Origin: Treponema sp.
GTDB lineage: Bacteria; Spirochaetota; Spirochaetia; Treponematales; Treponemataceae
DNA: 36,230 bases
Assembly: GCF_024696245.1 (NCBI RefSeq)
Contig: NZ_JAILGZ010000082.1
Span: forward strand, 1 to 36,230
Direction of reading: 5' to 3'
The translations under genes and the position numbers were made by a program. The notes under the pieces are model-generated. The model saw nothing but the letters and a program-made list of their open reading frames with translations, was not told the DNA's origin and ran no database searches. Below are positions 30,004 through 34,165 of the stretch, one piece after another. How positions within the stretch are numbered: position 1 is the stretch's first letter; each line of letters starts with the position of its first letter.

Positions 30004-31461
30004 TTAGAAATCTGCCAGCTTAGGCGCTCTAGGATATGGAATAACATCACGGATATTTTCCATTCCTGTTACGTAGCGGATAAGCCTTTCAAATCCAAGA
30101 CCGAATCCTGAATGAGGTACAGTACCAAACTTACGAAGGTCAAGGTACCAGTCATAAATTGATTCGTCCATATTGCGGTCCTTAATAGCCTTAAGAAGCT
30201 TTTCGTAGCTTTCTTCGCGTTCAGAACCACCAATGAGTTCTCCAATTCCAGGTACAAGAACGTCAACAGCTTTTACAGTTTTGCCGTCTTCATTCTGTTT
30301 CATATAGAATGATTTTATCTCTTTAGGATAATTATAAACCATAACTGGCTTTTTGAAAATTTTTTCTGTTAAATAACGCTCATGTTCTGTAGCAATATCG
30401 CATCCCCAGTATGGTTTGAACTCAAATTTAGCTTCTCCAGCGTGTTTTTCAAGTTCTGCAATGGCATCTGTGTAAGAAATACGTACAAAATCTGCCTTTG
30501 CAACAGCTTCAAGGCTCTTTATAAGGCCAGGCTGAATGCGCTTGTCAAAGAATTCAAGGTCTTCACGGCATTTTGTAAGTGCCCAGTTAAGAAGGTACTT
30601 AACAAATTCTTCCTGAATATCCATGTCGTCGTTAAGGTCAAAGAAGGCCATTTCCGGTTCAATCATCCAGAATTCAGAAAGGTGACGTGGTGTATTTGAG
30701 TTTTCTGCACGGAAAGTAGGTCCAAAGGTGTAAACGCGGCTTAATGCAGTAGCCATGGTTTCTGCTTCAAGCTGGCCCGAAACAGTAAGGCTTGCCTTTT
30801 TGCCAAAGAAGTCCTTTGAATAGTCTACGATTTTGTGGGCATCTTCAATCTTCATTCCGCCGGCACCGGCCTTTACTCCCAGTTCAGCAATCTTTTCAAG
30901 GGAAAGGGTTGTTACCTGGAACATTTCTCCTGCACCTTCACAGTCAGAACATGTGATTTCCGGGGCATTAATGTACTGAAAGCCTCTTTCCTGGAAGAAT
31001 GAATGTACTGCAAATGCCATCTGGCTTCTTACACGGAATACAGCTCCAAAAGTATTTGTGCGGGCCCTGAGGTGGGCATTGTCCCTGAGATATTCCATGG
31101 ACATTCTGTTTTTCTGAAGAGGATATTCTTCTGAAGGACAGCTGCCAAGACATTCAAGATTCTGAAGGGTAATTTCTACTGCCTGACCGCTTGCAGGACT
31201 AGGGATAATAATACCTTCTGCTTTTACCGATGCTCCGGTAGAGAGTTTCTTGAGATTTTCTTCAATATTCTTAACATCAGCTTTTGAATCAGGTGAAGTT
31301 CTGTCAAAAGTGAGCTGGATATTTGCAAAACAACTTCCGTCGTTCACTTGAACGAATACGAGGTTCTTTGAGTCTCTTACTGAACGGATCCAGCCGTAAA
31401 CGGTAACTGTGCGTCCGTCAGGATTTGATGTAAGTAAATCTTTTATTAATACTGGTTTCAT
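30004..31461 (-). CDS. asnS: Asparaginyl-tRNA synthetase
   Basis: Class II synthetase charging tRNA-Asn. An OB-fold anticodon domain opens the protein (VTVYGWIRSVRDSKNLVFVQVNDGS), followed by the catalytic core. Motif 2 is TFRAENSNTPRHLSEFWMIEPEMAF, and motif 3 is GFGLGFERLIRYVTG. At 485 aa it is close to the usual bacterial length. Two ATGs, 9 nt apart, could start it (31470 and 31461). I prefer 31461 because a TTGACT-17-TAGAAT promoter puts the transcription start on that codon. In that case the upstream ATG would not be in the mRNA. There is no Shine-Dalgarno at either. Confidence 0.94.
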   Translation of the reverse strand: MKPVLIKDLLTSNPDGRTVTVYGWIRSVRDSKNLVFVQVNDGSCFANIQLTFDRTSPDSKADVKNIEENLKKLSTGASVKAEGIIIPSPASGQAVEITLQNLECLGSCPSEEYPLQKNRMSMEYLRDNAHLRARTNTFGAVFRVRSQMAFAVHSFFQERGFQYINAPEITCSDCEGAGEMFQVTTLSLEKIAELGVKAGAGGMKIEDAHKIVDYSKDFFGKKASLTVSGQLEAETMATALSRVYTFGPTFRAENSNTPRHLSEFWMIEPEMAFFDLNDDMDIQEEFVKYLLNWALTKCREDLEFFDKRIQPGLIKSLEAVAKADFVRISYTDAIAELEKHAGEAKFEFKPYWGCDIATEHERYLTEKIFKKPVMVYNYPKEIKSFYMKQNEDGKTVKAVDVLVPGIGELIGGSEREESYEKLLKAIKDRNMDESIYDWYLDLRKFGTVPHSGFGLGFERLIRYVTGMENIRDVIPYPRAPKLADF

Positions 31462-31468
31462 TATTTTC

Positions 31469-31497
31469 ATTCTATATACTTCTTATTTAGCAGTCAA
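31469..31497 (-). promoter_or_regulatory. asnS promoter (leaderless geometry)
   Basis: Minus strand: TTGACT (31492-31497), 17-nt spacer, TAGAAT (31469-31474), 7 nt, ATG ending at 31461. This is the same -10 to ATG distance as in era and mnmG. Confidence 0.6.
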
Positions 31498-31853
31498 GTT
31501 TACAGCAGGAATGTGGAATTTGAGTTTTTTTAGATATTAAATGAACCTTAAAAAAGTGTAATATTTTTAGATGAAAAAAAGTATAAAAAAATCGGAAAAA
31601 AAATTAAATAAAACATAATTTATACACTTTTTCAAAAAAATGACGAATATTTTTTAAAAAAATGAGTATAAAAAATCATACAGTGTATACAAAATTATAC
31701 AAATTTGTATAAAAAATTGTACACCTTTTTAAAGTTTTCTTAAAAATTGTCCCCTAAACTTGAATTTTTCTTAAAAAAAATAATTCCATATAATATATAT
31801 AATTAGCGAAAAGTTTTCTTTCCGGGAAAAAATATTTTTAACATTTTTTTTAG
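31498..31853. other. AT-rich intergenic region with repeated GTGTATA-like motifs
   Basis: About 350 bp without a gene, far more AT-rich than anything else in the window and full of A and T tracts. It holds several related motifs in both orientations: AAAAAGTGTA (31551-31560), TATACACTTTTTC (31621-31633), GAGTATAAAAAA (31665-31676), CAGTGTATAC (31681-31690), an 18-bp palindrome (31695-31712) and TTGTACACCTTTTT (31717-31730). No open frame of interest and no terminator-like hairpin was seen. The likely role is control of the downstream sigma gene, with A-tract bending. Confidence 0.6.
31695..31712. promoter_or_regulatory. 18-bp perfect palindrome, candidate enhancer site
   Basis: TTATACAAATTTGTATAA is fully self-complementary. 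Its centre is about 178 bp upstream of the predicted sigma-54 start, a normal distance for a bacterial enhancer-binding protein. An 8-bp palindrome TGTATACA (31684-31691) lies next to it. Confidence 0.5.
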
Positions 31854-31870
31854 TTGGCACAAAAATTGCT
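31854..31870 (+). promoter_or_regulatory. Sigma-54 (-24/-12) promoter of the sigma-factor gene
   Basis: TTGGCAC-N5-TTGCT matches the RpoN consensus, with GG and GC separated by exactly 10 nt. Counting C31869 as -12, transcription starts at about 31881. An overlapping TATAGA (31870-31875) could be a sigma-70 -10 box, but its -35 (TTTTTA) is poor. Confidence 0.8.
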
Positions 31871-31922
31871 ATAGATTTTAGTGACAGAAAATGAAAACGA
31901 AACAGAAGGAGAACTCGGAATT

Positions 31923-32732
31923 ATGAAAAGTGAAATAGATTCGGCTTATTTAAGGCAGATTCAGCAGTTTCCGCTGCTTTCTGTGGAACAGGAAATTGAT
32001 TTGTCTAAAAGGATCCAGGCAGGTGACAAAAAGGCACTCTCGGCATTGGTTAACTCCAATCTCCGTCTGGTTGTCAGCGTTGCCCTTAAATTCAGCAGAA
32101 CCCCCGCTGATGTCATGGATCTTATTCAGGAAGGAAATATGGGGCTCATGGTAGCTGCCGGAAAGTACCATTTTTCTTTCAATACAAGGTTTTCAACGTA
32201 TGCCTATGCATGGATTGCCCAGTATATGCTGCGTTTTGTTAAATCTCGTACCCAGTTCATAACATTACCGGCCAGAAAGGAAGAACTTCTTCGCCGCGTC
32301 AGAGACGCTCAGGCCTACCTTTATGAGCTTACGGGAAACGAGCCGTCTGAAGAAGAAGTAGCTGTTTATCTGGGTATGAATATCGAAGATCTTAAATCGG
32401 TATTCAGTTACGCTTTTACAGTTGCTTCACTTGATTGTGAGACCGGTGACGATGATTCTTCTACCCTCGTGTCGGTGATTCCGGATACTTCCTGCACTCC
32501 CGAAGAGAATTTAATGCTGGAGGAAGAAAAACGTCACCTGTATTCACTTATTGATGCACTTCCGGTAAATGAACAGAAGGTACTTAAGTACCGCTACAAC
32601 TTTGCCAACGATTTGCATTCAAAAACACTGCGCGAAATCGGAAAAATCATGGGTGTAACCCCTGAAGCTGTCCGCCAGACAGAGATTCGTGCCGTTAAAC
32701 ATTTGAAACATGCAGTTAGTACTGCTGTTTAA
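31923..32732 (+). CDS. Alternative sigma factor of the sigma-70 family (group 2/3 type)
   Basis: 269 aa. It has a region 1.2-like start (SAYLRQIQQFPLLSVEQEIDLSKRIQAGD) and a full region 2 (LVNSNLRLVVSVALKF..MDLIQEGNMGLMVAAGKYHFSFNTRFSTYAYAWIAQYMLRFV). Region 3 contains LPARKEELLRRV. Region 4 has a helix-turn-helix (TLREIGKIMGVTPEAVRQTEIRAVKHL). It lacks the acidic region 1.1 of RpoD and is of RpoS/RpoH size. I choose ATG 31923, preceded by AAGGAG (31906-31911), over the in-frame GTG 31881, which coincides with the predicted transcription start; a leaderless GTG form is possible. The sigma-54 promoter implies activation by an enhancer-binding protein. It is not FliA-like. No gene symbol is given, because RpoS, RpoH and SigA-like cannot be separated by eye. 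Confidence 0.9.
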   Translation: MKSEIDSAYLRQIQQFPLLSVEQEIDLSKRIQAGDKKALSALVNSNLRLVVSVALKFSRTPADVMDLIQEGNMGLMVAAGKYHFSFNTRFSTYAYAWIAQYMLRFVKSRTQFITLPARKEELLRRVRDAQAYLYELTGNEPSEEEVAVYLGMNIEDLKSVFSYAFTVASLDCETGDDDSSTLVSVIPDTSCTPEENLMLEEEKRHLYSLIDALPVNEQKVLKYRYNFANDLHSKTLREIGKIMGVTPEAVRQTEIRAVKHLKHAVSTAV

Positions 32733-32877
32733 GGTTTTTGAGAGCTAGCATACATGCTTCATTAACCTATAAAGGCGTAGGTGTCAGATCGTAAGACTGC
32801 ACTTATGCAGATGATGAGCAGGATGTTTTGTCAGAACATACTTGGACTCATTCATTTTCCTCCCTTTTTTTGTGTGG
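32733..32877 (+). other. Non-coding spacer after the sigma gene, possible 3' UTR or small RNA
   Basis: 145 nt without a credible gene. It contains a short CTGCA-CTTA-TGCAG hairpin at about 32797-32810 and a T-rich stretch before the terminator. It resembles no RNA family I can recognise. The long distance from the stop codon to the terminator (145 nt) is unusual here, where most terminators begin within about 45 nt of the stop. Confidence 0.35.
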
Positions 32878-32915
32878 GCCGTCTGTGTAAGTTTTACATG
32901 GGCGGCATTTTTTTT
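32878..32915 (+). terminator. Terminator downstream of the sigma-factor gene
   Basis: A 13-bp stem (three G-T pairs) runs from 32878-32890 to 32894-32906, with a 3-nt loop and eight T after one A. Confidence 0.85.
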
Positions 32916-32959
32916 CTTTAAAGGTGGAATTTTTGCCGGATATTTGTCACAATATCCCT

Positions 32960-34165
32960 ATGGCTACATCAAGAAAAAAGCCTGTAAGGCGTCGTAGTCC
33001 TGCAAGAAAAACAGCAGGTAAAAAAAAGCCTAAGGTTCAGCTTAAAAATTCCAGTGTAATTGCACTTTCTTTACTTCTTGCCCTTTTATGCGGTCTTCTT
33101 ATTTTTATGAATATAATCATGACCGGAGGGGATAAGTCTGCTGAAGATAAAAAGAATTCACCGGCCTCAAAAGTTGCTGCAGAAAAAACTTTTAAGCCTT
33201 CAAAAGATTCTTCTTTAAAGAATAATTCTTCTCACAGTGAAAATCCTGCATCGGAAAAAAGCTCTTCCCGGGATTCAGCTGATTCAGGAAGTTCAGGTAA
33301 TTCAATTAATTCCAGCAATTCACTTAATTCAGGAGAAAAAACTTCTTCATCAAATAAAGCTGCTCAGAATCAGAGCCAGTCACAGATTCAGATTCAGGAA
33401 AAAATTGCTTCGGCTTCTCCTTCTCAAGGTTCAAAGCCCCTTCCTCCAAAGTTCAATATTCCAAAGGCTGCAAAAAAAGCTGTCCTGGTTTTTGTTATAG
33501 ATGATGCAGGATTAAGTGTTGCCAATACAAAAAAATATGCCTCCCTGCCATTCCCTGTAACAATTGCCGTTCTTCCAAAGCTGGCTCATTCAAAGGACTG
33601 TGCCTACGTAGTTCGTTCTTCCGGTCAGGAACTTATCCTTCACCAGCCAATGCAGTCCCTTAACTTAAAGCTTAATCCCGGTCCTGGTGCAATTACCGCC
33701 GACATGGGAACTTACCAGATTGCAACTCTTGTAAAGGAAAACCTTGATGAAATTGGTCCCGGCGTAAAGGGAATGAATAACCACGAAGGTTCAATGATTA
33801 CTTCTGATAAAATAAAAATAGGTGCCGTACTTGAAGTTTGTTCGGAAAGGGGCATTTACTTTCTGGACAGCCGTACTACTGCAGATACTCAGGCTCCTCA
33901 GGCCGCCCTTGAAAGGGATATGACTATATTTGAAAAAAATGCACCTTATATAGATAATGTTGTCAGCAGGGAAGCCATGTTAAAAGAAATTTATGGCTGT
34001 CTGGATGTTGCCAATAAAAAGGGAACGGCTATAATGATAGGCCACGTTGACAAGTCTGCAGCCATTCTTCCGGCTCTTCTTAAGGAAATGTATCCTTACC
34101 TGGTAGAAAAAGGCTACACCTTCGCCACCCCGTCCACACTGTATAAAGGTGAATCTTGTTTTTAG
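32960..34165 (+). CDS. Divergent polysaccharide deacetylase family protein (YibQ-like), membrane anchored
   Basis: A very basic N-terminus (KKPVRRRSPARKTAGKKKPK) is followed by one membrane helix (about 33-55) and a long Ser/Asn/Lys-rich linker with many NS, SS and SSN steps (to about 165). The C-terminal domain, of the divergent polysaccharide deacetylase type, is extracytoplasmic. Its motifs are VLVFVIDDAGLS, PFPVTIAVLP, HQPMQSL, MNNHEGSMIT, FLDSRTT and AIMIGHVDKSA. It probably acts on envelope polysaccharide or peptidoglycan; activity of this family is poorly shown. The start is uncertain: ATG 32960 has no Shine-Dalgarno. An in-frame TTG at 32933 has AAAGGTGG 5 nt upstream, and a GTG at 32924 overlaps that site. 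tsaD follows after 9 nt. Confidence 0.82.
   Translation: MATSRKKPVRRRSPARKTAGKKKPKVQLKNSSVIALSLLLALLCGLLIFMNIIMTGGDKSAEDKKNSPASKVAAEKTFKPSKDSSLKNNSSHSENPASEKSSSRDSADSGSSGNSINSSNSLNSGEKTSSSNKAAQNQSQSQIQIQEKIASASPSQGSKPLPPKFNIPKAAKKAVLVFVIDDAGLSVANTKKYASLPFPVTIAVLPKLAHSKDCAYVVRSSGQELILHQPMQSLNLKLNPGPGAITADMGTYQIATLVKENLDEIGPGVKGMNNHEGSMITSDKIKIGAVLEVCSERGIYFLDSRTTADTQAPQAALERDMTIFEKNAPYIDNVVSREAMLKEIYGCLDVANKKGTAIMIGHVDKSAAILPALLKEMYPYLVEKGYTFATPSTLYKGESCF

Follow-up and report, generated by a model that had tools for sequence, protein, structure and literature searches.

The RpoN-RpoS cascade of Borrelia burgdorferi serves as a model of host adaptation and has been studied as though it were peculiar to Borrelia. 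The pathway runs from the kinase Hk2 and the NtrC-type activator Rrp2 (BB0763) through RpoN to RpoS (BB0771), and sigma54 control of rpoS is established (PMC3037356, PMC11109971). Activation of Borrelia rpoS has been reported as enhancer-independent, at least as Blevins 2009 is cited in PMC11109971, and RpoS levels were normal in Borrelia with a 78-bp upstream fragment (PMC11109971). The naming of Borrelia RpoS is disputed (PMC6719511, citing Chiang and Schellhorn 2010 and Hengge 2011), and broader affinities have been reported for it in the same work. In Treponema denticola, sigma factor regulation has been described as not clarified (PMC7586716), and Rrp2 figures as a predicted but unstudied sigma54 activator; its partner kinase, Hpk2, carries an oxygen-sensing PAS domain (PMC12070737).

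The locus described here also resembles two other kinds of system. NtrC-type enhancer-dependent promoters (glnA, psp, and others) likewise place the inverted-repeat sites of their AAA+ activator upstream of a -24/-12 element, but the treponeme target is itself a sigma factor. Proteobacterial RpoS (sigma38) has the same group 2 sigma-70 architecture, with different residues in region 4.2; to our knowledge, it is not transcribed by sigma54 in enterobacteria.

The window, by which we mean the whole stretch of 36,230 nucleotides of Treponema sp. DNA that was analyzed, shares with the Borrelia pathway a sigma54 promoter before a group 2 sigma factor gene, in a genome with rpoN. The two sigma factors fall in one clade and have region 3 and 4.2 residues in common, and an orthologous kinase and NtrC-type activator are encoded. 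Unlike the Borrelia pathway, the treponeme has a conserved putative enhancer array, two further activators, and a second sigma54-preceded sigma factor. The preliminary description of this DNA knew of no such arrangement in Treponema, and we found no report of one in the open-access literature (subscription journals were outside the scope).

A conserved sigma54 promoter element precedes the sigma factor gene

The promoter and the transcript predicted from it comprise the following features.

31854-31870, plus strand: sigma54 (-24/-12) promoter, TTGGCAC-AAAAA-TTGCT (sequence, genome scan, orthologue conservation, shuffles)
31881-31922, plus strand: predicted 42-nt leader (sequence; start inferred from the -12 position, not mapped)
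31923-32732, plus strand: alternative sigma factor, 269 aa, regions 1.2-4.2, Borrelia-RpoS type (domain and family searches, trees, residues)
32878-32906, plus strand: predicted intrinsic terminator of the sigma transcript (consensus scan only)

The sequence TTGGCACAAAAATTGCT at 31854-31870 is an exact -24/-12 element (TTGGCAC-N5-TTGCT) lying 52 nt 5' of the sigma ATG, which bears out the earlier reading of a textbook element at this place. It is the single occurrence of the exact pattern YTGGCACN5TTGC within the window, and scanning the source genome (2.66 Mb in 163 contigs, 99% complete) gave only four sites with this pattern and none with its reversed control. A 12/12 element did not arise in any of 20,000 dinucleotide-preserving shuffles of 31651-31925. 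Two of the checks that had been proposed were run, and both came out positive. The genome has one rpoN (contig C93, E 1.1e-42) together with three strong sigma54 activators and four weaker AAA+ matches, and orthologues both near and remote retain the GG/GC core.

The core, GG-N10-GC, stands upstream of the window-type sigma at 38 of 39 loci in the first orthologue scan (locus L035 lacks the element), at all 19 loci of a further scan, and at 25 of 29 loci mostly from other genera of the family, where the four exceptions with a changed GG or GC still match 10-11 of the 12 positions. Once two contigs that were sampled twice are counted singly, about 80 of the 85 distinct loci scanned across the family have the core. 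At most loci, the distance from the element to the beginning of the protein match is 20-140 nt. Run as a positive control on 12 Borrelia-type genomes, which were assigned to Borrelia by their size, low GC, and gene positions, the scanner placed a near-consensus element (10-11/12) 5' of rpoS in 11. In a sample of the phylum, the element stands at 8/8 additional members of the clade described below versus 0/8 of a separate sigma clade. The locus thus meets the criteria for a sigma54-dependent promoter, namely GG-N10-GC, conservation, rpoN with an AAA+ activator, and upstream inverted-repeat sites; that RpoN acts at this promoter is inferred, as there are no expression data.

Counting from the -12 C at 31869, the predicted start of transcription is 31881, in agreement with the preliminary description, although it has not been mapped. 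A leaderless GTG start at 31881, which had been left as a possibility, is unlikely from the sequence and was rejected, because an orthologue 94% identical, the closest, has no in-frame GTG and a Shine-Dalgarno sequence, AAGGAG at 31906-31911, precedes the ATG at 31923. The terminator-like hairpin at 32878-32906 suggests a single-gene transcript, with the reservation that the consensus scan found two such sites against 1.4 expected. About 145 nt (32733-32877) separate the sigma stop codon from the predicted terminator, so that a long 3' untranslated region or a small RNA is possible; an Rfam search of the locus gave no match. The downstream gene (32924-34165) stays near the sigma gene in about 30 of 52 orthologous loci, and the upstream neighbors vary.

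An inverted repeat is conserved upstream of the promoter

The words most enriched in 49 orthologous upstream regions are pieces of one inverted repeat, TGTATA-N6-TATACA. Simple EM motif finding with a plain background collapsed on poly-A, whereas an order-3 background and gap scans were successful. At a gap of 6 and with up to two mismatches, these regions hold 81 TGTATA/TATACA sites versus 4 in reversed controls, and the repeat is present in 45 of the 49 versus a shuffle mean of 1.6 and a maximum of 5. The half-sites are concentrated in the stretch 120-230 bp 5' of the -24 element, the usual place for enhancer-binding proteins. Three sites stand in the window.

31665-31682, no strand: putative enhancer (UAS-A) site 1, AGTATA-N6-CATACA, two mismatches to TGTATA-N6-TATACA (motif scan; no binding data)
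31684-31701, no strand: putative enhancer (UAS-A) site 2, exact, TGTATACAAAATTATACA (motif scan; no binding data)
31706-31723, no strand: putative enhancer (UAS-A) site 3, TGTATAAAAAATTGTACA, one mismatch (motif scan; no binding data)

None of 3000 shuffles gave three sites together, as are found at 31665-31723. The repeat is also found in the majority of the family's other genera and in some less closely related spirochaetes (L309, L312), whereas none of 11 upstream regions of Borrelia rpoS contains it, an absence that fits the published enhancer-independent activation. Nor was it found in the other sigma54 target families. A conserved putative enhancer upstream of the treponeme sigma gene is, to judge from sequence and without binding data, new here.

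The sigma factor groups with Borrelia RpoS

The open reading frame (31881/31923-32732) encodes sigma-70 regions 1.2, 2, 3, and 4 only. Region 1.1 is absent, as had been noted before, and this is the group 2 architecture. It is one of seven sigma-70-type genes in the genome, where the primary RpoD is a separate gene (contig C45). In NCBIfam, the protein falls below every curated RpoD and RpoS cut-off, and the criterion for a proteobacterial RpoS is unmet (TIGR02394, rpoS_proteo, 180.9 bits versus a cut-off of 378.7). Orthologues are patchy, being found in only about 53 of the 146 genus genomes, so this sigma factor is dispensable.

In both the FastTree and the IQ-TREE phylogeny, eight further spirochaete sigmas join Borrelia RpoS and the sigmas of the window type in a single clade (SH-aLRT 99.9 and UFBoot 89 with IQ-TREE) that excludes RpoD, E. 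coli RpoS, and the spirochaete sigmas of other groups. AU tests reject placing Borrelia RpoS with E. coli RpoS (p 0.026), with RpoD/SigA (p 0.002), with the second treponeme sigma (p 1e-7), or with another spirochaete sigma group (p 0.0015); the more conservative SH test rejects the second-sigma placement only. Within the clade, support is weak (47/68) for the branch uniting Borrelia RpoS directly with most of the Treponema sigmas, and non-spirochaete homologues were thinly sampled.

Members of the clade also have residues in common, P-x-R-K in region 3 and S-x-E-T-V-R-Q in region 4.2, the latter replacing T-R-E-R-I-R-Q; the window sigma reads LPARKEE and TPEAVRQ, respectively. Both occur in 12/12 Borrelia sequences and 8/8 other clade members, and among treponeme orthologues P-x-R-K is found in 41 of 50 and the S-x-E-T-V-R-Q type in 46 of 50. 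Outside the clade, in RpoD, E. coli RpoS, and the spirochaete sigmas of other groups, neither was seen. A role in promoter selectivity has been proposed for R121/K122 of Borrelia RpoS (PMC6719511), and we infer from the local sequence match that the Arg-Lys pair of the clade corresponds to these residues. The clade, the AU rejections, the common residues, and the Hk2-Rrp2 orthologues described next together support Borrelia RpoS as a homologue of the window sigma and not merely an analogue.

Candidate activators and other sigma54 targets

One of the three strong activators (contig C48) has the domains REC-AAA-HTH_8, and its gene follows that of a soluble, PAS-like histidine kinase. The two proteins are 53-54% (activator) and 33% (kinase) identical to the Borrelia pair; the genes are adjacent in each genome, and in Borrelia-type genomes they keep the identical order and lie near rpoS. 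The treponeme genome thus encodes orthologues of Hk2 and Rrp2 together. A second activator (C78) has the domains GAF-AAA-HTH_8, and the third (C119) has no recognizable sensor or DNA-binding domain. In this third protein (C119:11664-12149; L114, L216 7377-8387), the sigma54-activator AAA+ domain carries GAFTGS in place of GAFTGA.

The four consensus sigma54 promoters of the genome lie before two group 2 sigmas, a protein with a domain resembling sigma region 2 (C6), and an Hsp20 (C18). The second group 2 sigma (C130:56341-57250; L129, L135) has its own exact sigma54 promoter and adjoins groES, as judged from the upstream reading frame; it is found in 59/59 genus genomes searched, with the element at 29/30 loci. 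In a genome of 1,139,633 bp (G165), a T. pallidum-sized one, the second sigma likewise adjoins groES and is preceded by a 10/12 element; no window-type sigma was seen there. Exact sigma54 elements precede Hsp20 in six genus genomes (C18:34387-34403, L131; L268, L271, L273, L274, and L278). The second sigma and Hsp20 have in common a predicted enhancer unlike the TGTATA array, GTGTCA-N3-TGACAC, present with up to three mismatches at 24/28 and 6/6 loci, respectively, and at 3 and 1 in controls.

The C6 gene (C6:33580-34597; L130, L184) encodes a fast-evolving protein of about 320 aa found in 93 of 98 genus genomes, with the sigma54 element at 28/30 loci. Its predicted N-terminal domain aligns with almost all of sigma-E region 2 (4lup_C, Z 7.5, rmsd 3.4, 92 residues aligned), a score that is middling for a helical protein, and its C terminus resembles a helix-turn-helix. 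Several members of the family match sigma region 2, 3, or 4 weakly, and a Foldseek search with the protein gave no significant match. On the evidence of these models, it is possibly a divergent sigma-like factor. TTAGT-N5-ACTAA was considered as an enhancer for this gene and rejected; it is exact in the genome and not enriched among orthologues.

Proposed mechanism and alternative explanations

We are confident, if short of certain, of an activator-driven sigma54 promoter that yields a group 2 sigma factor serving promoters of its own. Sigma54-RNA polymerase would wait at 31854-31870, and an AAA+ enhancer-binding protein would occupy the TGTATA-N6-TATACA array, the sites of which have their centers about 166, 188, and 207 bp before the predicted start. 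When the signal is on, the bound activator would touch the polymerase through a DNA loop and open the promoter, and the product, a group 2 factor of the sigma-70 family, would steer RNA polymerase to its own promoters. Because the contact residues of regions 2.4 and 4.2 differ, its promoter specificity is expected to be unlike that of RpoD. The promoter and its conservation, the enhancer motif, rpoN, the activator genes, and the family of the sigma factor are read from the sequences; the action of RpoN and an activator here, the identity of that activator, and the targets of the sigma factor are inferences.

There are no transcription data for the gene, and a sigma-70-like match of 9/12 does lie at 31838-31866, which leaves room for transcription mainly by RpoD or another sigma factor, with the -24/-12 element as a minor or relic promoter. 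Sigma-70-like sites are, however, at chance level (4 found, 5.7 expected), for which reason a sigma-70 promoter was rejected, and the -24/-12 element persists at about 80 of the 85 orthologous loci, as it does in the Borrelia relatives; we think this reading very improbable. The array raises a similar question of ownership, as in the window it stands between the sigma gene and the divergent asnS (30004-31470, minus strand) and might be an asnS operator. Yet of 52 orthologous loci, only about 10 have asnS upstream of the sigma gene, and the upstream neighbors vary, whereas 45 of 49 upstream regions keep the motif at a similar distance from the -24 element. We therefore assign the array to the sigma gene and give the operator next to no credence.

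If the grouping with Borrelia RpoS were an artifact of long-branch attraction, sigma54 control would have arisen independently in the two lineages. The branches are long, the bootstrap support is moderate (UFBoot 89), and non-spirochaete phyla are thinly sampled, but the AU tests reject four alternatives, the P-x-R-K and S-x-E-T-V-R-Q residues are common to both lineages, and both have the identical kind of sigma54 element as well as Hk2-Rrp2 orthologues, so that we consider this unlikely without dismissing it. The choice of activator is less settled. With a genuine sigma54 promoter, the GAF-domain protein C78 could be the activator, and the signal input would then differ from that of Borrelia; its GAF-AAA-HTH_8 domains favor this, as do the two well-defined enhancer types, TGTATA-N6-TATACA and GTGTCA-N3-TGACAC, which call for at least two DNA-binding activators. 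Weighing against it, Rrp2 is the activator tied to a sigma factor of the RpoS-type clade in Borrelia (PMC4014564). In the absence of binding data, we infer the Rrp2 orthologue (C48) to be the likeliest activator and keep C78 as the alternative, a real possibility that falls somewhat short of an even chance.

Implications for the spirochaetes

The two-step sigma cascade that the preliminary description had drawn by analogy with Borrelia is supported by the presence of rpoN and the retained GG/GC core, the regulation itself being inferred, and the clade with Borrelia RpoS and the encoded Hk2-Rrp2 orthologues carry it beyond analogy. Because it recurs across the spirochaetes, the switch is probably old and not an invention of the Lyme disease lineage; an ancestral origin in spirochaetes is probable but not shown, given the thin sampling outside them. 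We lean, by a small margin over doubt, toward an RpoN-to-sigma cascade, probably with Hk2-Rrp2 input, that is ancestral to much of Spirochaetota, the Lyme pathway being derived with loss of its enhancer and treponeme RpoN chiefly controlling other sigma factors.

A clade of sigmas under sigma54 control that spans the spirochaetes favors a spirochaete origin, singles out candidate residues for promoter choice, and predicts a lost enhancer in Borrelia. A gut treponeme would thus carry a Lyme-type switch in which one sigma factor is inferred to turn on another, the second belonging to the family of Lyme RpoS, and the pathway becomes testable in commensal spirochaetes.
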